The position numbers and the translations under genes were made by a program. 64,000 nucleotides of DNA from Algoriphagus hitonicola (GTDB taxonomy: Bacteria > Bacteroidota > Bacteroidia > Cytophagales > Cyclobacteriaceae). Positions 10,337-28,599 of the stretch are shown in pieces; the first letter of the stretch is position 1; each line of letters starts with the position of its first letter. Location of the stretch: NCBI RefSeq assembly GCF_900113375.1, contig NZ_FOPC01000009.1, positions 124,001-188,000 on the forward strand, read 5' to 3'. The notes beneath the pieces are model-generated. The model searched no databases. It was not told the origin of the DNA and saw only the letters and a program-made list of their open reading frames with translations.

Positions 10337-12262
10337 TTACGTATTATTTTCCAAGACTTGATCAAAATTTAATCCGCTACTTCCCTCGCCTCTTCCGGTA
10401 CGTTTTCTTCTCCCATACCAGGTGACGATTTTACCATGATACCAACGCGTGCGCTGATAGGTGCCCGTTAATTTAACTCCAGACCGAGGTACTTCCTCCT
10501 CATCAATAAATAGGGGTTGAAGTTGTTCATCATTCGGATTTATACCTTCTCGAAGCAACTGCGTGCGGGGTCTGACTGCATGCGTAGGGAATAACGCTGT
10601 AATCCGAGGCATGGATGCTCGCTGAAAATGGACCTCCCGATTGGAGCCATTCCGATGTACCGAGATAAATGGAATCCAATTCTCACTGATTGTATTACCC
10701 AGTTGATACTTTAGCATTGCTTTGTAAGTACGTGCTTTAGCTTCAGGGGAATTTGAATCAATCTCGGGAAGGGCTATCCTTGACATTGCCGAAGGCTCCT
10801 CCTGAAGCTTCTCTAGTATTTGCTGAAAATTCCGGGCAGCTTCATAGCCGTCGATCGATCCCCCCAAACCGTCAGGAACTTGACTTTCGATCGCCCAAAC
10901 GAGATTAGCCATTTCATCACGGATCAGTTTAATCTCCTCAATAGGCTCGCTCTCCATGGTTCGGGCAACTACCGGAGGCAGCAAAATACGTTTGTCAAAA
11001 TCAGGCTTTTCAAACTCTCCCTTTTCTACAGAAAGGGAGAACATATTCCAATCGTTCCAGTCATTTCCAGCTTGATGAGCAGGCTCTATGAAATAATTTT
11101 GTCCAAAAGTATCTCTGACGACAATCCCTTCTACCTCAGCAAAAGAGCCGGTAGGGATATCATAAGGGATAGAAAGCCAATCATTACTGTATTGCATGGC
11201 ATATTGAGTGACGAGGATTTTGGCGATATCAGTATCGGAAGCTTTCAAATTACCCAAATCTATCGATCCGTCTTCCATCTCCCACCAGCGGGAATTGGGC
11301 ATTCCCGCAAATGCTGCCTCAGTCGGAATCAAGCTGATGACCTTTCTGGTTTTTACCGATTCGTCAAATTCGCTACCTGAAGAAGAATTTTCCTTGCTTA
11401 CGTCAAATGAATACCAATCCAAATGTCCCTGAAAATACGCTGCGGCAGAAAGTTCAGTTTGTCCGCCATTTCCCTCCTCCACCTTGGCTTTGAAACTATA
11501 CTCTAACCGCTCCTGATACCAACAGTTGTCTTCGGGATCAACGGGAATATTCAATTCCTCTCTCACAAATTGGATCCAATTACTCGCAGCCACCTCTAAG
11601 ATCCCTCGATGCTTCAAATGGACAAACTGATCCTTATCTGGACTTTGGTTTTCTGCCAAAACCAGTGAATTGATTTTAGTATAATCTCCGGCTAAAAACA
11701 CCCATAATTCCAAACCATTTAGGGCCCTGCCAGCCAAGGCTCGAAGAAAGGCCGTCGCTTGTTGTAGACTCAGTTGACGGGCTTTGGAAATCTCCTCGCC
11801 CACCGACTCATTGTCTTTATTCAATTCAGGAACCTCAAATGGGAATTTGGCTAAAAGGTTATTTTTGTATTGTCCAGGGTTATAGCCATCTTCTTCAGGG
11901 GCATTTGCTCCTTGCTCATCCAGAAGCTGAAGAAATTTCCGACCCCATTTTGCTGCTTTTTTTAAATCAACCTGAGGAATAAGCCGCTCTATCTGTGTTT
12001 CAAGAGGGATATTTTCGGAATAGGATGGACTAGAACCGTTTGGAAATTCCAAATTCGAAATCCGGACAGAATTTACCGCCACTTTGGCAAATATGGCTGA
12101 ACCTGCATCTTCACCCTTGAATTCACCAAACTGGTACTGTCGGGCAAGCATCCACAGGGGATCATGGACACGAGCAGCCAACGCATCTTCTAGCTCCTCT
12201 TCCCGTGGTCTACCTTCTATTCGATTAAAGGCCCTAAATGGCGCACAATAAATATTACTCAT
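10337..12262 (-). CDS. 641-aa conserved protein of unknown function, last gene of the giant operon
   Basis: No characterised family is recognised. The N-terminus has a striking block: NRIEGRPREEELEDALAARV (residues 13-32) directly followed by DPLWMLARQYQFGEFKGEDA (34-53), a wording I recall from uncharacterised proteins of other phyla. Later come WWEMEDGSIDLG, a YSNDWLSIPYDIPTGSF segment, a VVRDTFGQ segment and RDEMANLVWAIE. The tail is basic (WYGRRKRTGRG). No signal peptide or membrane helix is visible. It is soluble and rich in Trp and acidic residues. The start lies 2 nt after the stop of the 2156-aa gene, so translation is probably coupled and the product should work with the other three giants. 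Confidence 0.75.
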   Translation of the reverse strand: MSNIYCAPFRAFNRIEGRPREEELEDALAARVHDPLWMLARQYQFGEFKGEDAGSAIFAKVAVNSVRISNLEFPNGSSPSYSENIPLETQIERLIPQVDLKKAAKWGRKFLQLLDEQGANAPEEDGYNPGQYKNNLLAKFPFEVPELNKDNESVGEEISKARQLSLQQATAFLRALAGRALNGLELWVFLAGDYTKINSLVLAENQSPDKDQFVHLKHRGILEVAASNWIQFVREELNIPVDPEDNCWYQERLEYSFKAKVEEGNGGQTELSAAAYFQGHLDWYSFDVSKENSSSGSEFDESVKTRKVISLIPTEAAFAGMPNSRWWEMEDGSIDLGNLKASDTDIAKILVTQYAMQYSNDWLSIPYDIPTGSFAEVEGIVVRDTFGQNYFIEPAHQAGNDWNDWNMFSLSVEKGEFEKPDFDKRILLPPVVARTMESEPIEEIKLIRDEMANLVWAIESQVPDGLGGSIDGYEAARNFQQILEKLQEEPSAMSRIALPEIDSNSPEAKARTYKAMLKYQLGNTISENWIPFISVHRNGSNREVHFQRASMPRITALFPTHAVRPRTQLLREGINPNDEQLQPLFIDEEEVPRSGVKLTGTYQRTRWYHGKIVTWYGRRKRTGRGEGSSGLNFDQVLENNT

Positions 12263-12264
12263 AG

Positions 12265-15200
12265 CTATTCTGGTTCATAACCAGTGTTTATCCTAGAAAA
12301 ATCTACATACAATCCCATTTTGGAATCGCTATCTTCATCGATTTCCTCATCTAGCAGCCGTTGGACATGCTCCGTATTACCGTAGGCCAAAGTCGCTGTG
12401 GCAGGGAGTAATTGGGAATACATGGACTCCTCCACATGCTCTGGCTCGACCGCCCTGAGTTTGCTCAGACTAAATGCTTCCTCTATGCAATGAGCAAGTT
12501 CTTCAAAGTCCCAAGCGCCATTCTTTTCTGCCGGTACTGCAAGGAGCAAACTTTGGGGAGCCCTTGCATCAGGTTGATTGAAATGAAATGCAATCCCCGT
12601 GGTTTGCTTGGCAATAGGGATCAATTCTGTCCATTCGTCCAATACCAATCCACAGCATTTTTCCTCCACTTCCTGCTGGCCAAGTATCAAAAGTGACAAT
12701 CGGTCGCCATCAGGCTGGTAGGTATCTGGGTAGGCCGCTCCAAACCAATAATCTCGATCATTCAATGGGGGAAGATTGTCCATATCCCAGGGAAGTTGAA
12801 CAGGTTTTAGATTCAAAGGGTCTTCGTAAAGGAGTTCACCGAGCATAGAAACGGACTCCAACTGAGACATTGGTTTTCTAACATGGGAAATCTCAGCCCA
12901 CCAATCCACTAAATCACTTTCTCCAGAAAGATTTCGTAATGGGCTTTCACCCCATGGCATAGCCAGTTGGCTACTGATTTGAGCAGCATTGGTTAGACTG
13001 ATTTCTGGAAGAATTTTAAACCCACTTCCCAAAAACTTGGAGCTAAAGTCCTGGCAAAAGGTCAACCATTTTGCCTGCTCAACCTCTAAATCCAAGGCTG
13101 ACAGTTTCCCCTCTGCAAAGGAGATCTGCTGTTCCATTTTCGCTTTTGCTGAAACAATCCGCTGAGCCATAGTCAGCACATCTTCAGTTGGATTTGATGG
13201 ATAAAATCCAGCAAATCCGAACAGACAGAGGGACTTTAGTGAATCAATGGCTAGATTTCGTTCAATTTCGGTATAGGTAGTTTTACCAGATTGAAAGGGA
13301 GATAGCGTCTCCAAAAGATTTTTATAGTCTTGGAGAATCGAATTAATTCTCGATTTGATTTTACTGATGTTGATCCCCGTTGCCTCTGCTCCAAAGTTTG
13401 CATCATCTTCAGCGATTCTAAAATCACGTGCATCGCTGCTTCGAGCAGATCCGATGACTTTGCCCAAATGCTGAATCAATGAAATCAACTCCCCAAAACT
13501 CAAATCCCCGGGATTGCCGGGAGAATTAAATCTGAATTCGATTTCGCCTTCAGTACTTTGCCCCAAACCTCGAAGATAGTCCAAACAGCGAGCCTGAAGT
13601 TCTTCCTGACTTTCATCACCTCCCGCAGCTACCAACATCACCAAATCGATCGGCTGAAGTCCCAAATCAATCAAATTGACTGGAAAATCTCCAGAATCGA
13701 GTTTGACCATCCAAGAAATTTTAGCAGGATTTCCGATTCGGGCAGCTAGCCAGTGATTGAGCGCAGGTTCGGCTTTGCCTCGTGGGCTTTCTGGAACTCC
13801 AGCCCAAGGAGACCCAACAGAACCTGAAATCGGGATCTGAAGAATAGCCCGGTGTGAGACCATCACACCTTGTCGCATACTTCTGATGATATCCGGATCC
13901 ATGATGCTTTTCCCTTCTGCGATGGCATCCAAAATCGCCGCTGCTTTAATATGATTACCACGAACAAGTTGATATACGCCCTCAGCAGTCATCAGGTCAC
14001 CAAGAGCATCAAGTGCATCCATCAAATTGTCTATTTCATGAATGATGGCCCTAATTTTTTTGCGCTCCAAATCAGCTGTAGAACCCACATCAGGAGCACT
14101 TGGATTGGGGAGACTTCCTGTCAATCCCCAGGGATAATTAGAAAAGCCAATCGTACCTGAGTTAGACGTAATGACACTTTCGACCAAAGTCTTATCATCT
14201 AAAAGGTAGGATTCAAAATGATCAATCAAAGCAATTCCGTCCACGACATTAGCGGGGCGTATGCTCTCCTTTTGAACTTGACTTGCCGATTCAATATTTT
14301 CATCTGAGTAGCTTGGAAACTTCCTTCGAAGGCGATAAATGTATTTATCCATTTCTAGCGGATTGCCTGCACCATTATCATATTTCTCGTGCAGTGCCCG
14401 CTCAAACTGATAACCTAGCAAAGCTCCCAATTCCTGGCCTTGGCTAACTCCCTCCAGCAGGTGAAGTGCTTTTCTTATCCTACTCGATGTTAAATTAATA
14501 GCCAGGGGATTGGCTGTTCCTTCTTGATTCTTCATCGCATTAAATCCTGCACGCAGAACTGCGGCAGTCACGGCATGATTCATACTTGGCCCATGAACGA
14601 AACCCTGACTATCCGGCTGCCGACTGACCAATCCGCCATTGATAGGCTCCAGGCCTTTGGGAAGGGTATTTATAAGCTGCTGAGGAGATTTTTCCCGACG
14701 TAAATCATGCACAAAACCGAAAGCGCCCAAATAAGTACCTTTTTCGTTTTCCTTTCTCAACTCGCGAAGTCTGAAATTGGATAAGCCAGTCAACCAAGCA
14801 TCCAGTCGATAACTCACCAAATCAATATGCGAGGCAAAAAGTCGCTCTAATAACTCTACATCAAGGTCAACCAATTTTTCAAGGGCATTTTTGGCAAAGG
14901 TCGAACGATCAAAAACTAAGGCTCCACGAAGCATCGCAAAAAGTGCTGTGTATTGAGTAAGTTCTTCTTCTTCAAAGGTGACTTTGGGGAGTTCATCAAA
15001 TTGCAATTGTGTGATTTTACTGAGATTCTCTGGTTTGAGTAGCCATTCGATATAGTTAACTCCCTTATCCGTGATGGCTAGCTTCTCTCCTAATCTTGGA
15101 TCTTGGACCAGCGGCCCGAGGATGAAGTTCCCTTCAGTAAATCGGTTTTTGTAAATGTCTGCTTTACTGATCGCATTGCTTTGCGCAAAAGAAGTGGTAA

Positions 15201-18200
15201 GATCCAGGTTTTTGAGCAGTTGATTATAATTATTGGCCACCTTGGTAGGTGCAAAAACATCATTTTCCAAATCCCAATTAATCACAAAAGTGGAGTCTTC
15301 TGGTTCTTTCCAGCGACTCGCTGCATTGACTCCAAATCGGTAAAAGAACTCCTTTGAAAATGGTTCCAATCCCAAAATCTTTAAAAACTGTCCTTGAGGA
15401 TCATTTTTATATTCTGGGTCATTGATGGAAATGGGCTTAGTTGGGAAATGCTCAAACGCTGCTTTTGTCTGTTTCAAAAACAGGGTAAGGTTTTTAATAT
15501 AGTTGGCCTCTGAACCTTTATTTAATGCCCCTTGAGATTTAAATGATTTCACCGGACTGATCGGCAAAACACCATAGGGCTGATTATCGATTTTAAAACT
15601 AGGAATAGTCCCAATCCCTGAAACATGTCGAAGCATGAAAAGCATGGTCTGGCTGATATCGTAGTCCTCCATCAGGCTGTCCACCATATTTTTGAAATAG
15701 TACTCCAGCGAGGCCGAAAAGAGCGAACGGTTCATTGCTCTTCCATTACAAATATCTTTTTTGTCGAAATGCTTCATTAATCGAATCAAATCCTCAGACA
15801 TCCCTAAGCCCTCTTTGAAAAACTGACCGTCCGATATCAAAAGCTCATTTTGATCCAAAGCACTATTGACAAACTCGGCCTGGTCCCCATTAAAAAACAC
15901 CTGGTAGGCTTCGTCAAAATCATTATCTAGTCCCCGATAGGGTGATTTGACAGATTCTGTATTGTTGGTCGCTGTGCCCAATGGCAAAAATTCCAATCCA
16001 CCTTCACTATACAGGTGATTGGTAAAAAGCTTATCGATCAATTGTTGACTGGATTGAGCATCTTTGTTTTGGACGCCATAGGCCATCACCAGATCAAAGC
16101 CCTCTTCAAAATCAGTCTTGTCAAGAGGAATCTTCAAGCCCATTCCAACTTCTACTGCTGCTTCAAAATCAAACATCCAACTCAGCGATTGGGGAACTTT
16201 CAACTCGCCATCCTCCAAGTGATCAAACTCATCTGCTTGATTTCCACTGGGGTCAAGACTCAGAGGAAGTGGATTGGGGATAGTTTTACCAGTGACAATG
16301 TGCTGGTATTCATCTCCACGCTTGGTCACAACCACAAACCGGTCCGGCAGCGCTTCGGTAAATCCAGCCCGATCCCAACCTTTACTTTTTTTCTCTACTT
16401 CAGGAAAGGTTAGTTTAGGCTTAAAAGGCAGATTCAAGCCTTTCAAATTCGATTGATAAAATTGATAGATCAGTTTTCCAACTTCGTTGACTTGCTTCAC
16501 AAAAGCCTTGATATCCGATTCCTGAAGGCTTCTGCTCCGTGAGCGTTTCCAGGTGGCTGCCCAATCAATGGCTTCCCGGCAGTGTGCCAAAGCCTGATCA
16601 AGAAATTCCTTATTTTCCAGGCAAACTGTAAACCGTTTCGGCTGAAGGTAAATTTTAACCTTACTTGACCAAGCCGCAAAGGCATCTACCATTTTTTGCA
16701 AATCGGTCGTATTGCGAACAAAGTCTCTTCTTTTCGGCACATAGAATAATTCTCGGATAAGAATGTCCCAAAATTCATCTTTGATTTCCTCTACCTGATC
16801 TAATTTGACCTCTTGCGGCTCCAAAATCTTGATAGCATAAGCTGCTCTTCGTGCCCCCATACTAGCAGCGGCAGCACGCCAAGCACCCAATTCAGCATTT
16901 TTTCGATTAGCTGGCAAAAACCGATATACCTCATGATAAAAGTCTTGAGCCATTTTGATTTCATTTTCGGTCAACCGCTCATCATGATTGTCGATGGCAA
17001 TATCATCCGGAAAAATGCGTACCCACAATTCCATCACCTCGACAGAAGAAGGTACCCGAAATACTACCCTGTCCCGATTTAGCTCATAAAACCGATCACG
17101 AGGATCATTTATATCCACCAATTGATCCAAAATATGATTTTCTATTGCTAGCAGTTTACTCTCCGCCTCCACTCTGGCAGCAGTAGCATCCGGCCTCGGA
17201 TTGGCAGTGAGGACATTATTCACCTGATCCTTCAAACTGTAATAGGCACTTTTCAGCTGATTGTAATCCCCTCTTGGAAGCAAAATCGTATTGGATGAAG
17301 AGATTTTGATTTTTTCTTGAAGCTCTCCAAGCTGTTTGGTCAGTACATCAAGTTGTTTTTTGGGGACTGAGGCCTTACTTGAACGAATTACTTCTCGGGT
17401 TCTAAGCAAATTGATCCGGGTGTCATTTGCTGCTCGGGCACTGAGTCGGATTCGATCATCTGCTATGATTTGGTTTTCGGTTTTGACCAGTTCCGGATCG
17501 AGCTCTCTTAATTGGTTCAGGTAGCTCGTAATCTGATTTGAAGCCTTGGTCAAGGAAGCCTTTTGAGCTGGTGTCACGACTTTTACCCTTCGGATCTTCT
17601 TTTGAAAATCAACCAATTGATTCTTCAATTTCAGAAAATTCGCCTTCAATTCTTTAATCTCTGTCAAACTACCCTCAAGCGGAATCTGTGCATGTTCGTG
17701 GATAGATTTCAGCTGGGGAAATAGCGCTTTTTGTGTAGTTGATACAGTTCGTAAGTTGAGGGAAGAAAATCTGGATTGCCCCATCATCCTGTTCATGGCT
17801 TTGAGGATTTCCGCATTCAACTGCTTGACAGGATAGGTTTTCAACTGTCCTCGAGACCTGATCACCGGAACATGTTCTTCATCTATTCGCTTTTTGAGCC
17901 CATTGATTTTATTACGGAGGTTATATTCTTCTTTCTTGAGGTCTCTGATCCCGGTATAGCCAATTTTGAAATTAGTCAGCCGTACATCTCCGCTTTTATG
18001 ACGCCGCTTGATATACGAAATCTTACTTTGAATTTCCTTAATCACCTCCTCAGTCGCCCCGAAATCCGGCTCATCTGCAAGCTTGTCAAGTTCTTCGATT
18101 TGAAGATCAATTTTATCAAGCTCGGCGTCTAATTTGGCAGCGTTGATTTTATTGGAGACAAAAATCGCATCAATACTCTTATTCAGTTTATTTAATGAAT

Positions 18201-18735
18201 CCAGGTACTTTTTACCCTTCTCAAAAATGGAAACTGAGGGAGTCTTTAGCTTCTCAATTGTTTTGGTTAGCCTTCCAATTGCTGAAGAAAGGTCTCCAAT
18301 TTTCCCACTGTATAGGGAATCTTTTTCTATTAGCTTGGCCAAAGAGTCCAAATCCTTAGCTGCATCACGAAGGACTATTTTGTCTGCTCGGGTAGCCTGA
18401 TCAAACGCTTCGATTTGGGAGATTTGTTTTTTGATTACGCTGTTAAACGTTGTGATTTTTGACTGGATCTGTCGAGCGTTTAGCTGCTTTTTTCTTTCGG
18501 GTAAAAAGAAAGTTCGGATCTGATGATGAAGCTTGTATAAATCTTGAATAATCCCACCTACATGAGGTTGATTGGGTTTTTCAGGAGTAATTATCCGGGC
18601 ATATTTCACAAACTTCGTCTCAAGCCGTACAGGAAGCATCAATACGGGAAAATCATCGCTGCGCTGGTTAAAGGCCGATTTGATATGGTGAAAAGTGGGA
18701 TCGTTATATTTTCCTATGAGTTCTGTGGTGGGCAT
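12265..18735 (-). CDS. 2156-aa giant protein with a long coiled-coil region, function unknown
   Basis: The protein opens with FPVLMLPVRLETKF (residues 29-42). Residues about 60-540 then form a Lys/Glu/Leu/Ile-rich helical stretch with heptad-like spacing, predicted coiled coil. After it comes ELWVRIFPDDIAIDNHDERL (569-588) and AWRAAAASMGARRAAYAI (619-636). Further blocks are LSWMFDFEAAVEVGMGLKIP (851-870), GTIPSFKIDNQPYGVLPIS (1042-1060) and, later, GPSMNHAVTAAVLRAGF. From memory, the first two blocks sit close together in similar uncharacterised proteins, which would make the coiled coil an insertion. No signal peptide, membrane helix or enzymatic motif is seen. Spacing to its neighbours is 2-4 nt on both sides, so it belongs to one transcription and translation unit. 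Confidence 0.75.
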   Translation of the reverse strand: MPTTELIGKYNDPTFHHIKSAFNQRSDDFPVLMLPVRLETKFVKYARIITPEKPNQPHVGGIIQDLYKLHHQIRTFFLPERKKQLNARQIQSKITTFNSVIKKQISQIEAFDQATRADKIVLRDAAKDLDSLAKLIEKDSLYSGKIGDLSSAIGRLTKTIEKLKTPSVSIFEKGKKYLDSLNKLNKSIDAIFVSNKINAAKLDAELDKIDLQIEELDKLADEPDFGATEEVIKEIQSKISYIKRRHKSGDVRLTNFKIGYTGIRDLKKEEYNLRNKINGLKKRIDEEHVPVIRSRGQLKTYPVKQLNAEILKAMNRMMGQSRFSSLNLRTVSTTQKALFPQLKSIHEHAQIPLEGSLTEIKELKANFLKLKNQLVDFQKKIRRVKVVTPAQKASLTKASNQITSYLNQLRELDPELVKTENQIIADDRIRLSARAANDTRINLLRTREVIRSSKASVPKKQLDVLTKQLGELQEKIKISSSNTILLPRGDYNQLKSAYYSLKDQVNNVLTANPRPDATAARVEAESKLLAIENHILDQLVDINDPRDRFYELNRDRVVFRVPSSVEVMELWVRIFPDDIAIDNHDERLTENEIKMAQDFYHEVYRFLPANRKNAELGAWRAAAASMGARRAAYAIKILEPQEVKLDQVEEIKDEFWDILIRELFYVPKRRDFVRNTTDLQKMVDAFAAWSSKVKIYLQPKRFTVCLENKEFLDQALAHCREAIDWAATWKRSRSRSLQESDIKAFVKQVNEVGKLIYQFYQSNLKGLNLPFKPKLTFPEVEKKSKGWDRAGFTEALPDRFVVVTKRGDEYQHIVTGKTIPNPLPLSLDPSGNQADEFDHLEDGELKVPQSLSWMFDFEAAVEVGMGLKIPLDKTDFEEGFDLVMAYGVQNKDAQSSQQLIDKLFTNHLYSEGGLEFLPLGTATNNTESVKSPYRGLDNDFDEAYQVFFNGDQAEFVNSALDQNELLISDGQFFKEGLGMSEDLIRLMKHFDKKDICNGRAMNRSLFSASLEYYFKNMVDSLMEDYDISQTMLFMLRHVSGIGTIPSFKIDNQPYGVLPISPVKSFKSQGALNKGSEANYIKNLTLFLKQTKAAFEHFPTKPISINDPEYKNDPQGQFLKILGLEPFSKEFFYRFGVNAASRWKEPEDSTFVINWDLENDVFAPTKVANNYNQLLKNLDLTTSFAQSNAISKADIYKNRFTEGNFILGPLVQDPRLGEKLAITDKGVNYIEWLLKPENLSKITQLQFDELPKVTFEEEELTQYTALFAMLRGALVFDRSTFAKNALEKLVDLDVELLERLFASHIDLVSYRLDAWLTGLSNFRLRELRKENEKGTYLGAFGFVHDLRREKSPQQLINTLPKGLEPINGGLVSRQPDSQGFVHGPSMNHAVTAAVLRAGFNAMKNQEGTANPLAINLTSSRIRKALHLLEGVSQGQELGALLGYQFERALHEKYDNGAGNPLEMDKYIYRLRRKFPSYSDENIESASQVQKESIRPANVVDGIALIDHFESYLLDDKTLVESVITSNSGTIGFSNYPWGLTGSLPNPSAPDVGSTADLERKKIRAIIHEIDNLMDALDALGDLMTAEGVYQLVRGNHIKAAAILDAIAEGKSIMDPDIIRSMRQGVMVSHRAILQIPISGSVGSPWAGVPESPRGKAEPALNHWLAARIGNPAKISWMVKLDSGDFPVNLIDLGLQPIDLVMLVAAGGDESQEELQARCLDYLRGLGQSTEGEIEFRFNSPGNPGDLSFGELISLIQHLGKVIGSARSSDARDFRIAEDDANFGAEATGINISKIKSRINSILQDYKNLLETLSPFQSGKTTYTEIERNLAIDSLKSLCLFGFAGFYPSNPTEDVLTMAQRIVSAKAKMEQQISFAEGKLSALDLEVEQAKWLTFCQDFSSKFLGSGFKILPEISLTNAAQISSQLAMPWGESPLRNLSGESDLVDWWAEISHVRKPMSQLESVSMLGELLYEDPLNLKPVQLPWDMDNLPPLNDRDYWFGAAYPDTYQPDGDRLSLLILGQQEVEEKCCGLVLDEWTELIPIAKQTTGIAFHFNQPDARAPQSLLLAVPAEKNGAWDFEELAHCIEEAFSLSKLRAVEPEHVEESMYSQLLPATATLAYGNTEHVQRLLDEEIDEDSDSKMGLYVDFSRINTGYEPE

Positions 18736-18739
18736 GGCA

Positions 18740-21700
18740 TTATTCGGTTAGCATGGTGGACGCATGACGTGCAAAAAGAATTGGAGACTGATAGAGAATA
18801 TAGGCCATGTCACTACTACTGGCATTCCACTTGACTTTAGGAGAACCCAATCCAATACTATTCCCATTAACCTGCAATTTCCCATTAACCTCCAGGTAAG
18901 GAGGATACTGGTTAATATCATTAGTAATGTGCTGCCATGCTAAATCGTCCCAGCTATTTAGTGAAGGCAAGGTTTCGGCAGCATCATCTAATCCAAAACT
19001 GATCTGGGCTGGACGCTCTCGCAACACGAAAAACCAACCTGGATCCCCAGTTCGATTTCCGTTGGCCTCTTCAGGAGTAAGCTCAAATCCAAAGAAATAA
19101 ACATCCGGCTCTAATGTGCCACTAAGGACCGGCCATTTGACATTCTGAAGATCATCATAATCACTTAACTTCCTAGGCAAAGCTGGATTGCCATTTTGGT
19201 ATACTGCCTTCTGTGCATAAACCAATGTGTTTGGATACTTCCTCAATAGGTCTCCCTTGATCAATAAGACCAAACCTATCCCCTTCTTGGCTTGGTTATT
19301 TCCCAAAGAAGAATTCCAAAGGTGGATCTTATTGATATCTGCACATTTATCCTGATTTTCAATTAGTTCACTCAAATCAGCCATTGAGCCTACATTCGGA
19401 TTATTTTCATAATCCCAAAAATGCCTGAAATAACTTCCTCGCATATCGGTAGGAAATTCCCTCCATAAGAGTTCGCGAGAAAACTCATGATTCATTCCCA
19501 CAAGAAATGACTCCACAAATTTCCAATTTGGCTCCATCAAGGTAATGGTATTGGGCTCGATCTCAGAAATATTGGGAATAATGTAATCCGGAGAAATTTC
19601 TTTGAGGTAATGATAAACCGGAAATGGAAACCTTGGATAGGCCATGATCGGTTTATGATTTTCCGGTGCCGCTCCTTTGAAAAATGCCCCAAGTTTTCGC
19701 TTAAAATTGACTTTTGGATCCAGTTTTCCTTGAAGCGTAGCCACGAACGTCGCCTCCAATACGGGTTTAATTGGTCGGGTCAACACCTTAAATGCAGCAG
19801 GATCGGTGGCGGCATTGATATTAAAAACCGTAGAAAAGCTATTTGAATATTCTATCCGACTTTTCAACATTTCTACCTGTTGGAATTGAATCAGGGTGGA
19901 ATTGGTCGATGCTGACTTCTTTTTGAACAGAATTTGCTTTTCAAACTGAAAATCAGAATTAACAGTCTTGACAGTGCCATAGATTCCTTCATCAAAATCA
20001 TCACTGATCCTACCCTCAAAGACATCATTTTCTACCAAAAATTCCCAGGCTTTATTGGCTTGAATGACTTTACGTGAGCCGGCTTTCTTGAACGAATTTA
20101 CAATTGCAAAAGCTCGCTCATATTCTGCGGTTTTGGTAAACTCCGCCTGCAGTGCAGGAAGAAATAAATCCGTATTATTTACCATCGGACCCACAGCGAT
20201 TAGCACTGTAGCAAATCGCTCCATAAAAGATTTGGGCGGATTGGTCACCACCTGATTTATTAACTCAAACGTTTTTGTGGAGCTAATCGACATTAATGGT
20301 TCTCCTTTGGGAGGTGCAGCTGAGATTTTGCCTATATCCCCTTCGGCCTTATTCATCTTGACAAAAAGTTCCTGATTAAGGACCGCTTTAGCTCCATCCA
20401 CACCGCCATTCATCAAAGCGGTGGGGGTAAAATTATTGGCTACTTTCAAAAACGTCCCGGATCGAATTGCCGTAGGAACGGTCGATGTCTTTAATACTTT
20501 TTTGATTGTTGCATTAGCCTGAAACTTGATCATTTCAAAGGATTTCCCTGCAGCAAGAATCAAATTCAGGTGATCGAATTTTTGGATTTTCTTAGAAAAG
20601 AGTGCCTTTGACGCTCTTTTTGCAAGCTCATTTTCCCGGATTTTTTGATTGGCCTCATTGATTTCACCGATCTGTTCCCATGCCAATTCCATAAACTTCT
20701 CTTGGTGCTTTTGAACGACCTGGACCCCAAGCCCCGCTGCGGCGCGATTGCTGGGATGCAGGTTTAATTTATGAACCCAATCTGTTCCATTATTGGATAG
20801 CTTATCGATTCCTTTATGCCATTTCGCATAGATGGGCGGTGTGATAATGGGATCATCTTCCCGATTGGGGGTGAAGAAAAAAGCAGAATTATCCGAAACC
20901 GTGGTGCTTTGTAAATTGAAAGATAAATTAAGCACCTCTAGCAGTTGTTGCTTTAGCGCCAAATTTGTCATGGGCCAAGCTGCTGTTTGGTAATTGGGGT
21001 GGCGCATTGCACCTTCTACAAAACCCAGCGCATCATCACCCACGGGCATAATTCCATAACCCATATCATCCAACAGCATCTCACGCTTCCCGATATTTTC
21101 GGGGAGTTCTCGCGCTTTCAAAAGCTGGGCTAAACTTTCAAAATCTCCACCTTGATCCACTTTGAAGTTCCAAGTGAAATAATAAGGGTAATCATTAGGG
21201 TTAGTACCTTCAGTGATCGCATGGTTGCTCCAAGAGGACTGCTGCGCGGGCACCTCATGCGTGTCCAGGTTTAATCCAGCGCGACGCCCTGTCTCAAAGG
21301 CGGGAATCAAAAAAGCATGATATCGATTCGGGTCATAATCAAGACCAGGACTGGGATCGGTATATTCGAGTTTGCGAGCGCATAGCAACCGGGAAAGGGC
21401 CGAGTCAGGATCTTTGGCAATCAAATCGGCTAAATACGAATTAAGATTGGGGCTATTGTTTGCAATTTCCTCCAGCACCTGTACATGGGCAAGCGCATAC
21501 GTGTCTTCTTTATTGCAAAAAACTTTGGATAAAGCCTCATTGGTAATCGTGATATACGGAGTGGGAGTTCCGCCTTTGCTTTTTTCAAATTCATTTTCTC
21601 TAAGCACAATCAAAGCCAACCAAGGACGTAATTTTTCTCCATTGGGCCTTGCCGGCGTAAACCGCCAAGGAAGATCCTCCTCATAAAATTCAATGTAGCA

Positions 21701-21994
21701 AAGATTGTTGGTTTCAAAATTTGCCACACCGTTTTTTGGGTGAACCCGGATAATTGACTGGGGATTGACACCTAGCACATCTCCTGGGCCTTGCACCTTG
21801 ACTGTCTTGGTGATAGTGGATTCTTTGTTCTGATCACCTTGGATTCCTTTAAGTGTGGCAGAAACCGAGATTTCGGGACGCTCCAAAACCGGATTGCCAG
21901 GAAGAGCAGCTCCCAAAGAATCCACTTCAATGATTTCATTTCCGAGTCCCATTCGAACCCAAGGCAAAAAAGAGTAGTTTGCTAAATCTGGCAT
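18740..21994 (-). CDS. 1084-aa conserved protein of unknown function, second gene of the giant operon
   Basis: No named family is recognised. The protein begins LANYSFLPWVRMGLGNEI (residues 4-20), continues with VQGPGDVLGVNPQSIIRV (67-84), then YIEFYEEDLPWRFTPARPNG (100-119) and LRPWLALIVLRENEFE. The middle, roughly 430-800, is helical and less distinctive. The C-terminal third carries ELLWREFPTDMRGSYFRHFW (841-860), LVLLIKGDLLRKYPNTLVYA, FFGFELTPEEANGN (967-980) and GDPGWFFVLRERP. These conserved Trp/Pro-rich blocks suggest a folded, slowly evolving core. No signal peptide or membrane helix is visible. It starts 2 nt after the stop of the DUF6603-like gene and ends 4 nt before the 2156-aa gene. 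Confidence 0.75.
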   Translation of the reverse strand: MPDLANYSFLPWVRMGLGNEIIEVDSLGAALPGNPVLERPEISVSATLKGIQGDQNKESTITKTVKVQGPGDVLGVNPQSIIRVHPKNGVANFETNNLCYIEFYEEDLPWRFTPARPNGEKLRPWLALIVLRENEFEKSKGGTPTPYITITNEALSKVFCNKEDTYALAHVQVLEEIANNSPNLNSYLADLIAKDPDSALSRLLCARKLEYTDPSPGLDYDPNRYHAFLIPAFETGRRAGLNLDTHEVPAQQSSWSNHAITEGTNPNDYPYYFTWNFKVDQGGDFESLAQLLKARELPENIGKREMLLDDMGYGIMPVGDDALGFVEGAMRHPNYQTAAWPMTNLALKQQLLEVLNLSFNLQSTTVSDNSAFFFTPNREDDPIITPPIYAKWHKGIDKLSNNGTDWVHKLNLHPSNRAAAGLGVQVVQKHQEKFMELAWEQIGEINEANQKIRENELAKRASKALFSKKIQKFDHLNLILAAGKSFEMIKFQANATIKKVLKTSTVPTAIRSGTFLKVANNFTPTALMNGGVDGAKAVLNQELFVKMNKAEGDIGKISAAPPKGEPLMSISSTKTFELINQVVTNPPKSFMERFATVLIAVGPMVNNTDLFLPALQAEFTKTAEYERAFAIVNSFKKAGSRKVIQANKAWEFLVENDVFEGRISDDFDEGIYGTVKTVNSDFQFEKQILFKKKSASTNSTLIQFQQVEMLKSRIEYSNSFSTVFNINAATDPAAFKVLTRPIKPVLEATFVATLQGKLDPKVNFKRKLGAFFKGAAPENHKPIMAYPRFPFPVYHYLKEISPDYIIPNISEIEPNTITLMEPNWKFVESFLVGMNHEFSRELLWREFPTDMRGSYFRHFWDYENNPNVGSMADLSELIENQDKCADINKIHLWNSSLGNNQAKKGIGLVLLIKGDLLRKYPNTLVYAQKAVYQNGNPALPRKLSDYDDLQNVKWPVLSGTLEPDVYFFGFELTPEEANGNRTGDPGWFFVLRERPAQISFGLDDAAETLPSLNSWDDLAWQHITNDINQYPPYLEVNGKLQVNGNSIGLGSPKVKWNASSSDMAYILYQSPILFARHASTMLTE

Positions 21995-21996
21995 AA

Positions 21997-24900
21997 TTAT
22001 AATTCTAAAATATCACTGGAAACCACTTGTATACTTCGAGAACCCTTTTTGGAAGTTGATTTGACCACGTTCATCGCATCGATATAAGTCATTTGCTTCT
22101 CATTAGGCAAAACCGTCAGATCTTCCGTGCTAGCCACCGCAAAGGCAGGCTTATTCAATTCCACACGATGAAGATTATGGATTTTTGTTTGTTTAGCCGA
22201 AAGCTTGGATTGGGCTATTGCACCATTTTTACTAAAATAAGCTCCTTCCATTTTAGGTAATGAAAATGTATTTCCCCTAACCAAACTCCACTGAGTATTG
22301 ACTTCATCCATGACCATCTCTTCGTACTGAACGGGACGATTGGTCAGTTTGCCACAGGATAACTCACTTCCGGCTTTTAAACTGACACCGGAGTCCTGAG
22401 GATTGAAAGAAGGTAAGCTGAGCTTTTCATTATCAGGCAAGTCCACAAAGTTGGCAGACGCAAAAAGCTCTTGAACAAAACTTGGGTCTAAATCAGAGTT
22501 ACCAATGGAAATCTCAGGTATTTCAAATTGGGAATAGTCTGCAGGCTTAAATTGTCCAAACTTGCTTATCTCCACATTGAGAGGGACGATTTTCTGACTG
22601 ATCTCTATACTGCCATTAGGTGTCAAAATCAACTCGCCTTCATCACTCAGTGCCTTCATGCGCAGTCCCGAACTTCCCACTGACTTGGTAATGCTTCGCC
22701 AATTTTGAATATCCTCCAAGGCCTCCAAAAGCAATGGAAATACCTCAATATCCGGTAAACTGGTATCTCGCTTATCTCCCCAGGTGACATCAAATTTGAC
22801 CTTGACGGAGAAAAATAGTACCTTAAATTTAGCGGTACCTTTAGCACGCCAAGGAGCGGGACCTTCAAGGCTAAACTCAAGCGATAGGCTTAGAAGCGTT
22901 GTACTGCCAGCCATAACCGCCAATCTTGCTCTTGCATCGGCGATAAAGCGGAAAGGTGAAAATTGGAATAATACATCAAAGCCAAACTCTCCTACTACCT
23001 TAAATCCAGCAACGCCAAAGTAAAAATCAATCCCGGCACCAAATTGTACCGTATTGGAAGTCACTGCAAAATAACAAGTCAGCGTCAAGCGGGGGTTGCC
23101 CGAGAGAATCTTAAGTGTCATCCGCTTCATGGTCGGAATCTGCAAATGGGTAGGCGGCTTAAACCTAGGATGGAAACCTCCCACAGAGAGGACAAAATCT
23201 GGCTTTTCGCCCCAACTAATCCGCAGCACCATGTCGCCTTCCAAGCCAAAAGTCAATACTTTGGAATCAAAAAGACTAGCATCAAAGCTGAGCATGCCTT
23301 TTTCAAAATCAATCAGGCCCAAGAATGCTACTTGGATTTTGATCAAGGAGACATTTTCATCCGGCAAAATTACTCGCAATACACCCAAAATCCCAAACCG
23401 AACTGGATTGGCAAATTCAATGGCAATTCCCAAATCCACTCTCAAAATAGTCGGAACTCCCCAGGTAATCGCGGCCATAGGTCCCAAAACAAACTGATCC
23501 CGTTTGACTGGAAAGACCTCTTTAATATCAGTCAATATCTTATTGATATTGGCAATGATATCTTTAGGGAAAAGAATATTCTGGATTGTCCCCGATCGGA
23601 CACCGTCCCGTAGACGCTCTACTTGGATCGTCCGGTGAATCCCGAGAATCCCCCCCAATCCTGACAAGAAAAAGCCAAAACCCAATGCGATCCCCGTTCC
23701 GAATTCTACTGAAACAATAAATAATACTGAAGTACCCGGCTTGCCATCTGGCATTTTGCTGTTGATGATTCCAATGGCCGATACGGCAAACATATTCATA
23801 AAGGAAAGCTCGACAGCACCGGCATATTCTCCTTTTTCATCATCAAAAAATAAGTATCCCCCACCACTAAATACAGGTGTATCCAAAGACACTCCCAATC
23901 CTGTTGGTGGCAAGAATCGGATATCAATATTTACAATTCCAAAATTGGAATCCCCTTGAGGAACCCCGTTGTTAAAAGTTGCCTTTGTCAAAGTCGCCTC
24001 AATACCCAATCCTTCTACAGAAGCAGCCACCGGTCCCAAAACAATACTTGCTCCAGATAGGGAAATTCCAAGATCCACACCGGCTCCACCGTTATCTTTA
24101 TAGGTGATTTTTATTGCATCAAGGCTGACAGCATTTCCAAACTTTCCGTTCACCGGAATCAAGGCTTCACTTTGTGCCCCTCCAAAGGAAACACTCAAGC
24201 CCGAAGGCCAGCGAATATCCAAGTCAATATCAAAGGTATTCCCAAACTGAAGATCTTTAAGATTTACCTCACTGGGAAGCAGGTTATCCATCCCTGGAAT
24301 AACTATCTGGTTTTCAATTAGACCCCCAAGGATAAAATCCCATTCATCGGAAGCAGATCGACTCAGACCGATTTTATTGAGATAAATCCGAACAACGCTT
24401 GGAATATCGAGGACTTTTAATGCATCGGTGCTGGGAGTGATTTCACCTATTATATGGAAAGCCCCCTCGCTGTCAATCATTATATCCACCTCAATGGCTG
24501 TGGAATCACCACCCAATCCCTCGATTTCAAGCGCTCCTTTTAAGGCAATGGAAATATCAGAACCAGCTTTGCTAACTTCCACTGAAGAAATCGAGATCTT
24601 GACATTTCCCAAATGGAATACAGCAGTACTTCCAATAGATCCCGTAAAGTTACCTGCAGAAGGAACAGTAAAACTGATCTCCACCTTCGCCTGCTGATCC
24701 GAATCATCTTTCAATCCTGGGATTTCCAGTTCACCCTCGAAAGTAAACGGATACTCCAAACTGTCAGAAGTAAAACTTAATTCTAAGGTTTTAAGTAAAA
24801 AGGCAAATTCTCCGACTTTGATTTTTTGATCCTGATTGACGGAAATTTGGTATTTTTTACCCGCCTTTTCATAGCTAAAACCAATAGCAATCTCTGCTGG

Positions 24901-27900
24901 ACCTGAACCGTTTTCTTCCTCAAATCCCGAAAAACCCAATCCAGCTTGGGCACTGATACTTTCCAGATCGCCATTTAAAATCTGTAAGTCAAACTCCTCA
25001 ATAAACAAACTGACATCACCTAGCTTGAGCTCGGTCCGTTGCCCATCAGGATTCGCTTTGATCGTGTAGTTATTTCCATTCGAAAGCTGAAACTCAAAAT
25101 CCAATTCGTCATGTCCGGGTTCACAAGCAGGAATTTTTAGATTTCCTTCAAAATTAGCATCAGTCAAGTTTCCATTCTGAATGGCAAATCCAAATTGGCT
25201 GAAATTAAAATCAATATCTCCGATTTTGAAGATAGGCAGGGTAGTGGCTGCAAATGTCAATTTATTTGTAGCCTTGGTATAGCTCACCGAAACCCCGACA
25301 AAACTATCTCCCCCGGGAAGTTTAAATTGGGCCTCACCACTGATGGATGACAGACCGGAATTCTGAACGACCAACTCAAAATCCAAGTCTTTAATTTCCA
25401 ATCCACTTCCATCTAGCGTACCGGAAGATGTGATTTTTACGGTGTAAGAATCTCCTTGATTTTCAACTTCAAAAGTGAAATTCAAACTGCCTCCATTGGT
25501 AAAAATAGGCATGGTCATCGATCCCGTGAGATTAGCCGAATCAAATGCCCCATTTTTGATCAAAAATGCCAGATCAGCAATATTTAGGGTGAAAATAGCC
25601 AAATCAACCTGAGGCAATGCCGATGCAGAAAGCTCAAAAATCTCATCCCCATTTTTGGAATAAGCTACTTGAACAGCGAATGGTTGATCGGCTTGGCTGA
25701 TTTCAGGAATAAGAAATTTTGCCCCACCACTAGCATTTTTTACCCCTCCATTATCCACTTCGATATCCAAATCCAAATCACTCAATTCAAATATTCCAAA
25801 ATTGGCAGTTTGTCCACTGCCGTTGATCTTGATTTCGTAGGAAGAGTTTGACTGAATTTCCAAGTCGAAGGCTAAGGGATTCCCATCAAATACAGGAACG
25901 GTGATTTCTCCATTGATCTCCGCCGAATAGCTCTGACCTTGTACGGCCTCAATCCGGATTTTTTCGAATTGTAAATTGAAACTTTCGAGATCGGCCGACA
26001 CATCATTCAACTGGATAATAAAGGTGTGGTCATTTCCATTTTTCTCAAAAGAAATCGCAAAATTAAATGGACTATCCAAGCCGGGAATTAAAAGCGATCC
26101 TCCACCATTTACTGATTCGAGTTCCTTGTCTTCTACTTTCAATTCAAAGTTTAAAAAAGACAAACTAAGCGGACCAAATTCAATTGTATTTTGATCAGGT
26201 GTGCCGATAAGATCGATTTCATAGCCTTTTCCGTTGGCATCTACTACCAATTCAAATTGAATCCCTGCTCCACCGGTGGAGTCCGGAAGTTTAAAATTAC
26301 CCGAAGCTTGTCCATGGTGATAGTCCCCATCTCTAATCTCAAAATCCAGGGATGCAAGCTGAAGCTCTCCACCGAATAATTCGACATCCACAGGATTTTG
26401 TAATCCGATGTTATACTGATCCAGTGTTCGGGAATACACAAACGAAACCTGCGTAGCAGAATTAAAAACGGGTATCTGAAGTTCACCACTTCCTGAAAAA
26501 TCCTGAAGCACTCCATTAGCTACCTCAAAATCAATATCAAGCTGCTTCAATTCAAAATCCCCAAACTTCACGAGTTGGGTTCCACTATTTACATCAACTT
26601 GATATGTTTTACCCCGGTCAAAATTCACCTCAAAATCCAGTTCTCCTCCCTCTTCAAATACGGGTAAAGTTAACCCTCCCGAGGCCGAAGCTTGAAACTG
26701 TTGACCATTTTCTAGGAGTAAATTGATTTGTGTAAAACTCAAGCGAAAACCTTCGATCTCGGCTGCTACATCATTGAGCTGGATTTCGTAGGTCACATTC
26801 GCCCCGTTGATTTGAGTAGCAAAATCAACGTCAAAAGCCTGACTCAATCCGGGTAAAAGCAACTGACCCTCACCTTCAATACTTTGCAGCTGCTTATTGA
26901 CAACGTGCAGGTCAAAAGAATTCAATGATAATTCGACGGGACCAAAAACCAACTGATTATCCTGTGGATTACCCGTCAGCTCGATATGAAAATCTTCCCC
27001 TTGATTAGATATATTGAGATTGAAATTAATTCCCGCTCCATCAGTCGTATCCGGCAATTTGAGTTTCCCATTAATTTGACTGTTGGTAAATGTATTATTG
27101 ACAAAAAGAAATCGAATTTGTGAAAACTCCAGCTGGCAACCGGCAATTTCCGGGGTGCCAAAATCGCTAACTGCTATGCTTAGATTTTCATTGGAAGCAC
27201 TTCGGGTAAACTGCAATTCTACCTGTATGGGAGTGCCGGAAGTAACTTCAGGCATGGTCAATTCCCCATCACCTGTCACATCCTGAAGCAATTCATTCTC
27301 ATACAGCATTTCGTATTGCTGTAGGTTTAGCTCAAAGCCTCCATGTTTGAGAGTTTGATTAGTAGGATTGCTGACTTCGAGTCGAAAGCGATTCGTGGCT
27401 TCATTTTCAAAATTTATCCCAAAATCCAGCTGACCATCTTCAAACAAGGGCAGGCTTACCTTGCCCTCCCACCTGCTTTCATTCAATGTGCCGTTTTTAT
27501 GTATTCTGAGAAAAACCTCGTCAAAGTTCACCGAACCAAATCCCAGTGGAATTGGAGTGAAATCCTGCCCCGTAAACTCAAAATGTGGTTCGGAATATCC
27601 AAAACGAAATGAAGTTTTGGCTGGGCTTTGCGTAGCCGAATCATTGAATCCAGGCAATTCCGCCCAGCCGTGAATATCAATCTCCGAGGGCGAAGAAGGG
27701 TAAGTGAGGACCTCAATTTTTTCAAAAAAGACCGAAATACTTCCTTTTTTCAGCTCTTGCCCTTCTGGATTTTGGGCTTGGTAGCGGACATCACCATTAT
27801 TGAGCAATTCGACAGAAAAGTCGATCGTACTTCCATCCAAAAAATCAAATTCAAACGCTCCCGACATTTGGGTACCAGATTGAAAATCTCCATCCTGAAT

Positions 27901-28599
27901 CACCAGAGTCAATTGGGTGAGATTGGCCCTGATTCCTTGTAATCGGGCTGGAGGAAGATTGCTGGCAGTTCCAGTAAATATCCCAGAAGCAAAATCCAAT
28001 TTAAGGTTGATTGGCTGAGAGGCGGCATTATTTAGCGCATTGAGCCCAGGCATCAACACATCAAGATCTAATGAAAGCCCGGACAGCATGGATGCGGTAA
28101 ACGAAAGCTCGGATTCTTTGAGGTTCATGTTTACTCCATGGACCTTGCCCTCGATCACTCCTGTTTGAGTGATGAAAAACTCCCGAGTTCCGTTATTGTC
28201 TCGGATTCCAATTTCATAGGGGATTTTGACTAATTCATCACTCACCCGATCCCGTATAGACAGAAGCTGAGATTCTGCACGAAAAATTAATTCCTCAATA
28301 GCCGTGGTGGTTTCATTGAGTTTGATATTAAACTCTTTTAAAACCGATTCTAGATCTTGGAGAAAAAATTCAAATTCCTCAGTAGCCAAATCCTGAACTG
28401 TCTCGATGACGTATTGCGCGGATTCCTTGGAGACCGAAACCGGGATTTTGATGGGAAGATCTGCATTATCCCGCAAATGCTCCAGAACCATTTCAGCCGT
28501 ATCAGAAGGATTGGAAATCAGTTGATCCAATTGTCCTTTGAGCTGGCTGATCCCCGAATCCGAGAGCAACGATTCAAAAGGTAGGTTGATTACAGCCAT
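21997..28599 (-). CDS. 2200-aa repeat protein with DUF6603-like region, first gene of the giant operon
   Basis: Layout: residues 1-230, a helical then mixed N-terminal part without signal peptide; about 240-1370, roughly 18 tandem beta-type repeats of 62-70 residues, each with a core such as GSGELQIPVF or NGKLKLPD followed by alternating hydrophobic strands; about 1450-1940, a DUF6603-like region with FSGGGYLFFDDEKGEYAGA (1577-1595), FLSGLGGILGIHRTIQVERL (1644-1663), LGPMAAITWGVP (1705-1716) and GGFHPRFKPP (1807-1816); then a 250-residue tail. DUF6603 has no known function that I recall. The regular amphipathic strands would fit a long beta-groove or solenoid. It is the promoter-proximal gene of a four-gene operon and is 2 nt from the next gene. 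Confidence 0.8.
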   Translation of the reverse strand: MAVINLPFESLLSDSGISQLKGQLDQLISNPSDTAEMVLEHLRDNADLPIKIPVSVSKESAQYVIETVQDLATEEFEFFLQDLESVLKEFNIKLNETTTAIEELIFRAESQLLSIRDRVSDELVKIPYEIGIRDNNGTREFFITQTGVIEGKVHGVNMNLKESELSFTASMLSGLSLDLDVLMPGLNALNNAASQPINLKLDFASGIFTGTASNLPPARLQGIRANLTQLTLVIQDGDFQSGTQMSGAFEFDFLDGSTIDFSVELLNNGDVRYQAQNPEGQELKKGSISVFFEKIEVLTYPSSPSEIDIHGWAELPGFNDSATQSPAKTSFRFGYSEPHFEFTGQDFTPIPLGFGSVNFDEVFLRIHKNGTLNESRWEGKVSLPLFEDGQLDFGINFENEATNRFRLEVSNPTNQTLKHGGFELNLQQYEMLYENELLQDVTGDGELTMPEVTSGTPIQVELQFTRSASNENLSIAVSDFGTPEIAGCQLEFSQIRFLFVNNTFTNSQINGKLKLPDTTDGAGINFNLNISNQGEDFHIELTGNPQDNQLVFGPVELSLNSFDLHVVNKQLQSIEGEGQLLLPGLSQAFDVDFATQINGANVTYEIQLNDVAAEIEGFRLSFTQINLLLENGQQFQASASGGLTLPVFEEGGELDFEVNFDRGKTYQVDVNSGTQLVKFGDFELKQLDIDFEVANGVLQDFSGSGELQIPVFNSATQVSFVYSRTLDQYNIGLQNPVDVELFGGELQLASLDFEIRDGDYHHGQASGNFKLPDSTGGAGIQFELVVDANGKGYEIDLIGTPDQNTIEFGPLSLSFLNFELKVEDKELESVNGGGSLLIPGLDSPFNFAISFEKNGNDHTFIIQLNDVSADLESFNLQFEKIRIEAVQGQSYSAEINGEITVPVFDGNPLAFDLEIQSNSSYEIKINGSGQTANFGIFELSDLDLDIEVDNGGVKNASGGAKFLIPEISQADQPFAVQVAYSKNGDEIFELSASALPQVDLAIFTLNIADLAFLIKNGAFDSANLTGSMTMPIFTNGGSLNFTFEVENQGDSYTVKITSSGTLDGSGLEIKDLDFELVVQNSGLSSISGEAQFKLPGGDSFVGVSVSYTKATNKLTFAATTLPIFKIGDIDFNFSQFGFAIQNGNLTDANFEGNLKIPACEPGHDELDFEFQLSNGNNYTIKANPDGQRTELKLGDVSLFIEEFDLQILNGDLESISAQAGLGFSGFEEENGSGPAEIAIGFSYEKAGKKYQISVNQDQKIKVGEFAFLLKTLELSFTSDSLEYPFTFEGELEIPGLKDDSDQQAKVEISFTVPSAGNFTGSIGSTAVFHLGNVKISISSVEVSKAGSDISIALKGALEIEGLGGDSTAIEVDIMIDSEGAFHIIGEITPSTDALKVLDIPSVVRIYLNKIGLSRSASDEWDFILGGLIENQIVIPGMDNLLPSEVNLKDLQFGNTFDIDLDIRWPSGLSVSFGGAQSEALIPVNGKFGNAVSLDAIKITYKDNGGAGVDLGISLSGASIVLGPVAASVEGLGIEATLTKATFNNGVPQGDSNFGIVNIDIRFLPPTGLGVSLDTPVFSGGGYLFFDDEKGEYAGAVELSFMNMFAVSAIGIINSKMPDGKPGTSVLFIVSVEFGTGIALGFGFFLSGLGGILGIHRTIQVERLRDGVRSGTIQNILFPKDIIANINKILTDIKEVFPVKRDQFVLGPMAAITWGVPTILRVDLGIAIEFANPVRFGILGVLRVILPDENVSLIKIQVAFLGLIDFEKGMLSFDASLFDSKVLTFGLEGDMVLRISWGEKPDFVLSVGGFHPRFKPPTHLQIPTMKRMTLKILSGNPRLTLTCYFAVTSNTVQFGAGIDFYFGVAGFKVVGEFGFDVLFQFSPFRFIADARARLAVMAGSTTLLSLSLEFSLEGPAPWRAKGTAKFKVLFFSVKVKFDVTWGDKRDTSLPDIEVFPLLLEALEDIQNWRSITKSVGSSGLRMKALSDEGELILTPNGSIEISQKIVPLNVEISKFGQFKPADYSQFEIPEISIGNSDLDPSFVQELFASANFVDLPDNEKLSLPSFNPQDSGVSLKAGSELSCGKLTNRPVQYEEMVMDEVNTQWSLVRGNTFSLPKMEGAYFSKNGAIAQSKLSAKQTKIHNLHRVELNKPAFAVASTEDLTVLPNEKQMTYIDAMNVVKSTSKKGSRSIQVVSSDILEL
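24490..27912 (-). repeat. about 18 protein-level tandem repeats of ~65 residues in the DUF6603-like protein
   Basis: Repeat cores of the type G-x-x-x-(L/I)-x-(L/I/V)-P start at residues 246, 310, 377, 443, 509, 576, 640, 703, 765, 832, 895, 957, 1024, 1087, 1150, 1217, 1287 and 1353 of the 2200-aa protein, a spacing of 62-70 residues. Residues 509-764 and 765-1023 match each other better than other repeats do, module for module. Confidence 0.8.

Follow-up and report, generated by a model that had tools for sequence, protein, structure and literature searches.

What do four giant, closely packed genes of Algoriphagus hitonicola do, when only one part of one of their products has a family name? 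We followed up this question in a stretch of 64,000 nucleotides (nt) of contig NZ_FOPC01000009.1, hereafter the window, in which four minus-strand open reading frames (ORFs), here named G1 to G4, span positions 10337‒28599 with intergenic gaps of 2, 4 and 2 nt. G1 (21997‒28599) encodes a DUF6603 protein of 2200 amino acids (aa), in a long form with an N-terminal beta-repeat extension. G2 (18740‒21994; 1084 aa), G3 (12265‒18735; 2156 aa) and G4 (10337‒12262; 641 aa) belong to no named family, and the N-terminal part of G2 is common to the sister DUF6603 loci described below. These ORF coordinates agree with the strand, sizes and gaps given in an initial annotation of the window. We tentatively read the operon as coding for the core of a multiprotein apparatus, so far undescribed, that would carry an exchangeable effector and deploy it; we hold this to be a good possibility rather than a probability.

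Recurrence and conservation of the core

A scan for G4, with one genome taken per species, yielded 35 loci that, by their record titles (several being those of metagenome assemblies), belong to Bacteroidota, Pseudomonadota, Actinomycetota, Chloroflexota, Nitrospirota and Myxococcota. Plasmid records extended the core set to haloarchaea and Gemmatimonadota. DUF6603 was present in all 25 of the genomes searched out of these 35 loci. Among fetched loci in which two or more core families were found, the core was collinear in 90 of 93, which are not 93 independent cases, since some loci of one genome overlap. In the annotated plasmid records, large hypothetical proteins follow DUF6603 in unchanged order, with split genes in L039 and L077. 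Median gaps between consecutive core genes were 1, 4 and 2 nt, and 65 of 72, 66 of 79 and 52 of 58 pairs were at most 30 nt apart or overlapping, the overlaps including artefacts in the form of large negative values from over-extended ORFs. Recurrence of the order G1-G2-G3-G4 across seven bacterial phyla and haloarchaea is therefore strongly supported. The genes are also constrained, as indicated by ratios of nonsynonymous to synonymous substitution (dN/dS) of 0.073 for G1, 0.084 for G2, 0.103 for G3 and 0.087 for G4; these ratios come from four of eight comparisons, the other four being saturated and without a ratio, and in that of G1 the silent sites are near saturation (dS 1.97). That G1 to G4 form a conserved, collinear and constrained set is thus well supported.

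The non-collinear loci were L056, L052 (order 3-4-1-2) and L061, in which G2 was not found; G2 was also absent from one of 14 plasmid records carrying G4, a Streptomyces plasmid on which IS5 transposase genes lie about 4‒6 kb away. L052, from a Propionivibrio genome, has the permuted order G3-G4-slot-G1-G2, the slot being the position of the variable gene described below, and in L056, from Adhaeribacter soli, two DUF6603 genes of the same class as the window's stand in tandem, the second of them accompanied by a PhoD-like slot.

The core system is sparse and patchy in its distribution. Among 296 Bacteroidota genomes, DUF6603 exceeded its cut-off in 12 and G4 was found in six, and all six lie within the twelve, with G4 and DUF6603 9‒10 kb apart; the six genomes without G4 carry a sister class of locus. 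DUF6603 was found in four of 198 Actinomycetota genomes, one being the already-known centre of the search, and in 20 of 72 genomes of the window's own genus, the window's genome included. The initial annotation had predicted that the four families would recur in the same order in distant phyla, which the collinear loci bear out. The opposite outcome, families found mostly on their own, was not seen for G2, G3 and G4, whereas DUF6603 alone ranges wider. We also considered a phage-borne system and rejected it, the sole phage record with a G2 match, MT835531 (L073), resembling a bacterial contig. This record (MT835531.1), deposited as an unverified phage, carries G2 to G4 and is probably mislabelled, since the remaining genes, among them ones encoding a periplasmic-binding protein, an alcohol dehydrogenase and a STAND regulator, are bacterial in appearance.

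In the Pfam scan (E ≤ 1), DUF6603 (PF20248), at residues 1486‒2054 of G1 (22438‒24144, minus strand; E value 2.4e-128, 429 bits against a curated cut-off of 27), was the sole match over a curated cut-off among G1 to G4, in agreement with the earlier view that only this part has a family name. All other Pfam and NCBIfam matches of the four proteins were under their cut-offs. None of the four matched PADLOC models at E ≤ 0.01, and of four slot proteins compared with these models a single trypsin-like one gave weak matches. Against PHROGs, the best E value for the core was 0.079 and one tail family matched G3 at 0.47, nothing worth naming. Among the libraries scanned, G1 to G4 thus matched no characterised system, and the match of a core protein to a characterised unrelated system, named in the initial annotation as speaking against a new system, did not appear. 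By 19-residue Kyte-Doolittle means, no membrane helix was found in the core proteins, again as first described; the top mean, 1.87, lies at residue 1625 of G1 within a predicted strand, and the other core proteins reach 1.07‒1.58. The DUF6603 family has no assigned function, and it was not named anywhere in the open-access literature searched, a scope outside which subscription papers mostly lie.

G1 is predicted to form a long series of amphipathic beta-strands resembling the ApoB belt and porins, and the closest structural neighbour of its model is ApoB-100. In the C-terminal half, 21 predicted strands at residues 1556‒1940 (22780‒23934, minus strand) are amphipathic as a set. In the N-terminal part, residues 130‒1430 (24310‒28212, minus strand) consist of amphipathic repeats with a period of about 128 aa, seen in the long form only, with a beta moment z of 11.6. 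In some relatives, domains of the FG-GAP, decapeptide-repeat or lamin-tail type are inserted.

The exchangeable gene upstream of G1 and a shared protease module

The initial annotation described the four-gene set correctly, but missed an exchangeable gene upstream of G1, a C-terminal module shared by some of the proteins in that position, and an MnmH-like gene linked to the long form; these say more on function. We compared the 51 systems of the window's class whose sequence upstream of G1 could be read, excluding L072, which lies at the end of a contig. In 40 of these, a co-directional gene of changing kind, here called the slot gene, precedes G1 and often overlaps it by 1‒8 nt. The slot is PhoD-like in 19 systems, M64-like in four, Nal1/trypsin-like in four, an S8 subtilase in three, BTH_I2691-like in three, patatin in one and unassigned in six; eight systems have none, and three have a long-form G1 without a slot. 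PhoD-like proteins were assigned by Pfam in five cases (one under cut-off) and otherwise by BLAST to those five, M64-like proteins by Pfam in two and BLAST in two, and S8 proteins by Pfam in two and BLAST in L105. For the Nal1/trypsin-like proteins, the basis was Pfam matches below threshold in two cases (L047 and L050) and the module plus motifs in the other two, L042, which was unscanned, and L075, of whose two proteins one was scanned and gave no match. The PhoD-like copy of L061 lies about 1 kb away from G1, the S8 gene of L107 lies 144 nt away, and the S8 gene of the Nocardia locus L074 lies downstream of G4 and was tallied under none. The absence of a coupled gene is a weak observation in GC-rich loci, because longest-ORF gene calling is unreliable there.

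Catalytic motifs of the slot proteins are for the most part intact. HExxH is intact in all four M64-like proteins, the triad motifs in both complete S8 proteins, and GDSG is present in the trypsin-like proteins (by eye in the second L075 protein). Exceptions are L043, whose PhoD-like protein has none of the motifs looked for, and L064 and L066, in which the slot gene is split. The PhoD-like slot protein of L051 (3121‒6375) has a Tat-like start, the only export signal noticed (by eye). In haloarchaea, the three slot proteins resemble the BTH_I2691 profile over its C-terminal part, scoring 39.5, 28.7 and 21.9 bits, under the curated 150 bits and so outside the family as curated. All three contain a strong hydrophobic stretch, and the matched part may be the membrane-active part. 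The literature searched on effector combinations and on Nal1 yielded nothing pertinent.

On a quick G2 tree of 42 rows, in which 11 of 39 forks are open and L075, L125 and L121 form long branches, the 11 slot labels (including 'none', 'long' and unassigned kinds) require 20 changes, the minimum possible being 10. Well supported branches imply at least six changes for the PhoD label and three each for S8, trypsin and M64, and the haloarchaeal slot kind and the long form each make up one group. The labels are at the same time clustered, in that none of 200 shuffles needed as few changes. These results suggest that slots are inherited, yet repeatedly replaced. One genus has both forms of G1, with a PhoD-like slot in all five short-G1 loci fetched and no slot gene in the three long-G1 loci read upstream.

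The S8 proteins of L046, L105 and L107 and the trypsin-like proteins of L042, L047, L050 and L075 share a module of about 105 residues near their C-termini (internal in one L075 protein), with BLAST E values between the two protease classes down to 1.5e-10 and three residues invariant across ten rows. L047 also encodes the module as a separate protein of 138 aa. Searched against the ORFs of the loci compared, the module profile recovered nothing beyond its ten seed members (E ≤ 2.2e-33), the best of the remaining matches having an E value of 1; against the PDB, the best match had an E value of 0.48. The module occurred in three of the 25 core genomes, upstream of G1 each time, in two plasmid records, both with the core, and in three of the 296 Bacteroidota genomes, two of them beside the core. 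In the collections searched, it is thus rarely found away from the core. In the third genome, G054, which has neither DUF6603 nor G4, an orphan Nal1-like protease carries the module (L116, 9780‒11192 and 12826‒13854), with a patatin-like gene nearby (by eye).

The window's long form and the sister loci

The long form of G1 has about 1430 extra N-terminal residues, with self-similarity peaks at offsets of 129, 256 and 385. Among the locus ORFs compared, this extension matches just two other long-form G1 proteins. The window's operon has no slot gene, and the extension stands instead. Its origin as a fused slot gene was considered and is unsupported, the best BLAST E value against upstream genes being 0.83.

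Next to the operon lies a divergent MnmH-like P-loop gene (9161‒10147, plus strand; 328 aa). Residues 103‒317 match MnmH with an E value of 3.2e-47, at 161 bits against a cut-off of 241 and over the P-loop half alone, without the rhodanese half, which leaves the protein outside the family. In 49 genomes of the window's genus, each at least 97% complete, this gene was present in 11 of 11 with a long G1 and in none of the 38 others, 12.3‒12.5 kb from the DUF6603 match. The association (Fisher, 3e-11) is uncorrected for ancestry and may be inflated by shared descent; flank identity is 56‒100% among carriers and overlaps the 59‒75% of non-carriers, and the HAD neighbour is present in 49 of 49. A paralogue of the gene, an MnmH gene over the curated cut-off, lies at 63149‒64000 and is cut by the window end, and in L006, from another family, a related P-loop protein (28.6% identity) lies beside G4. 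We regard the MnmH-like P-loop protein as a putative accessory of the long form.

On one side the operon is bordered by genes for an ammonium transporter and ALA dehydratase, on the other by those for a HAD hydrolase and an aminotransferase. The initial description of housekeeping flanks does not hold on the 3' side, where the nearest neighbour is the MnmH-like gene, which goes with the operon and is not an ordinary housekeeping gene. A terminator-like hairpin (10157‒10179, minus strand; a 10-bp stem and then a T run) is located 3' of G4 between the convergent genes; terminator-like sites in the window are at chance level (23 found against 19.7 expected), and the hairpin therefore carries weight by its position only. 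A promoter-like site (28716‒28744, minus strand; 11 of 12 matches) lies 117 nt upstream of G1, in a scan that was at chance overall (30 found against 35.2 expected).

The sister class comprises seven loci in the six Bacteroidota genomes with DUF6603 over cut-off and without G4. These loci have a diverged DUF6603 protein of 1292‒3223 aa with a diverged G2 adjoining, and six of the seven have a protein of 1222‒1407 aa nearby, on either side. G2 and its sister counterpart are related over 204 columns (hhalign E value 2.8e-11), whereas between G3 and the third sister gene no relationship was detected (0.74). Two further matches, of G4 with the sister third gene (0.061 over 26 columns) and of G4 with G3 (2e-4, probability 47%), were noted and not used. 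Because G2 is related between the classes and the third proteins are not detectably so, DUF6603 and a G2-type protein look like the oldest common kernel. Sister-class loci are L093, L094, L096, L098, L100‒L103 and L122; their variable neighbours include a DUF4135 protein (L093) and a WD40-repeat protein (L094), and in L122 (15832‒17291) two collagen-like Gly-rich proteins (by eye) lie upstream of a DUF6603 gene encoding 3183 aa.

Possible functions and comparison with known systems

A constant core, a variable slot, a module on unrelated enzymes and a scattered, partly plasmid-borne occurrence together point to an effector-carrying apparatus under conflict selection. We infer that the four proteins assemble and that delivery is to other cells. 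The C-terminal module may dock the effector onto the core, the beta series of G1 could form a wall, shaped like a barrel or a belt, that touches or spans a membrane, and G2 to G4 would make the body and the target-binding parts. Release of the particle would need no signal peptide and could come about by lysis, for instance; its action would then be on other cells. In the window's long form, the G1 extension would replace the effector, being either active itself or combined with an effector encoded elsewhere. Action on other cells rather than inside the producer is our preference; seeing neither an immunity gene nor a secretion signal leaves the site of action between the two. That this is a new class of protein-delivery machine of bacteria and archaea, without relation to contractile or Tc systems, in which four giant proteins surround an amphipathic beta-belt or barrel (DUF6603), take up an exchangeable effector through a C-terminal module and, once released, insert into target membranes, is a more doubtful possibility.

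Several observations weigh against an effector-carrying apparatus. The conserved set has no signal peptide, secretion gene or lysis gene, and no immunity-like gene was seen adjoining the slot gene, although without a systematic search. Eight of the 51 systems lack a coupled gene, as do the three long-form ones, and the module occurs once without the core. The BTH_I2691 matches cover about 100‒130 residues, far under the cut-off. The G1 model has a predicted template modelling score (pTM) of 0.57, of the 21 strands only 13 count as amphipathic when taken singly (p ≤ 0.1), and the structural matches have root-mean-square deviations near 10 Å, indicating a similar sheet arrangement and not homology.

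Some of the same features would suit an intracellular defence of the abortive-infection type, in which the core would detect an invader and set loose the protease, lipase, phosphatase or pore former coupled to it within the same cell. This is an unlikely but serious alternative, kept alive by the use of trypsin-like and S8 proteases in bacterial conflict systems (PMC7159879). Core proteins in which neither signal peptides nor membrane helices are seen, the lack of an obvious immunity gene and the patchy, sometimes mobile settings (including the uneven occurrence of DUF6603 in the window's genus, and a locus between integrases with TIR, MoxR and TPR genes about 9‒16 kb upstream) are also consistent with it. 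However, the core has no NTPase or known sensor, the PADLOC comparison gave nothing beyond the one trypsin-like slot protein, and neither a very long amphipathic beta protein nor inserted adhesion-type domains would be expected of a sensor. If the core were instead a released or surface particle for digestion or lipid binding that displays a hydrolase to scavenge nutrients, with G1 as an ApoB-like lipid belt, this would fit the slot, where hydrolases are most of the assigned genes, the ApoB-100 likeness of G1, the lamin-tail, FG-GAP and decapeptide-repeat insertions in some relatives and the Tat-like start of one PhoD-like protein. The pore-toxin-like slots of haloarchaea and the repeatedly exchanged mix of metalloprotease, trypsin and patatin are nevertheless more effector-like, and the core has no signal peptides; we hold such a particle to be clearly improbable. 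We give least credence to the view that the core alone is the product, a giant assembly with a structural or adhesive role and with frequent but incidental passengers upstream; the systems without a coupled gene, the window's among them, fit this view, but the slot overlaps G1 by a few nt in many systems, and unrelated proteases share a module that is rare away from the core.

A core whose order is kept over seven phyla and haloarchaea while the slot is replaced resembles a machine under conflict-type selection. It would be a new kind of delivery device if it delivers, or a new kind of defence if it is a defence complex, and the slot gene makes either reading testable at once.

Among named families, G1 is a member of DUF6603, whereas G2 to G4, the slot and the module lie outside it; the gene at 9161‒10147 resembles the P-loop half of MnmH (tRNA 2-selenouridine synthase), under the cut-off. 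Tc toxin complexes and extracellular contractile injection systems likewise combine several large proteins without signal peptides with an exchangeable effector, and the proposed apparatus would work in a comparable way. They differ in that G1 to G4 have no subunit profile match over cut-off. No TcA, TcB or TcC family was listed for G1 to G4 at E ≤ 1, and the G2 of one relative (L017) matched TcdB_toxin_midN at 16.1 bits, under the cut-off of 24.8. The conserved set lacks the sheath, tube, baseplate and AAA+ genes of contractile systems, the sole such match of G1 to G4 being CIS_tube in G1 (E value 0.11, under cut-off). The likeness to the BTH_I2691 family of the type VI secretion system (Tke5, Ptx2) is limited to the C-terminal part of the profile and to the archaeal slot proteins; Tke5 is described as a pore-forming toxin of that system with a helical region sufficient to kill (PMC12909789). 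The conflict systems of PMC7159879 are NTP-dependent by title, whereas the core here has no NTPase match. They include trypsin-like and S8 proteases, some with small effector-associated domains (EADs), and are like the present system in carrying a small C-terminal module on different proteases of the trypsin and S8 classes.

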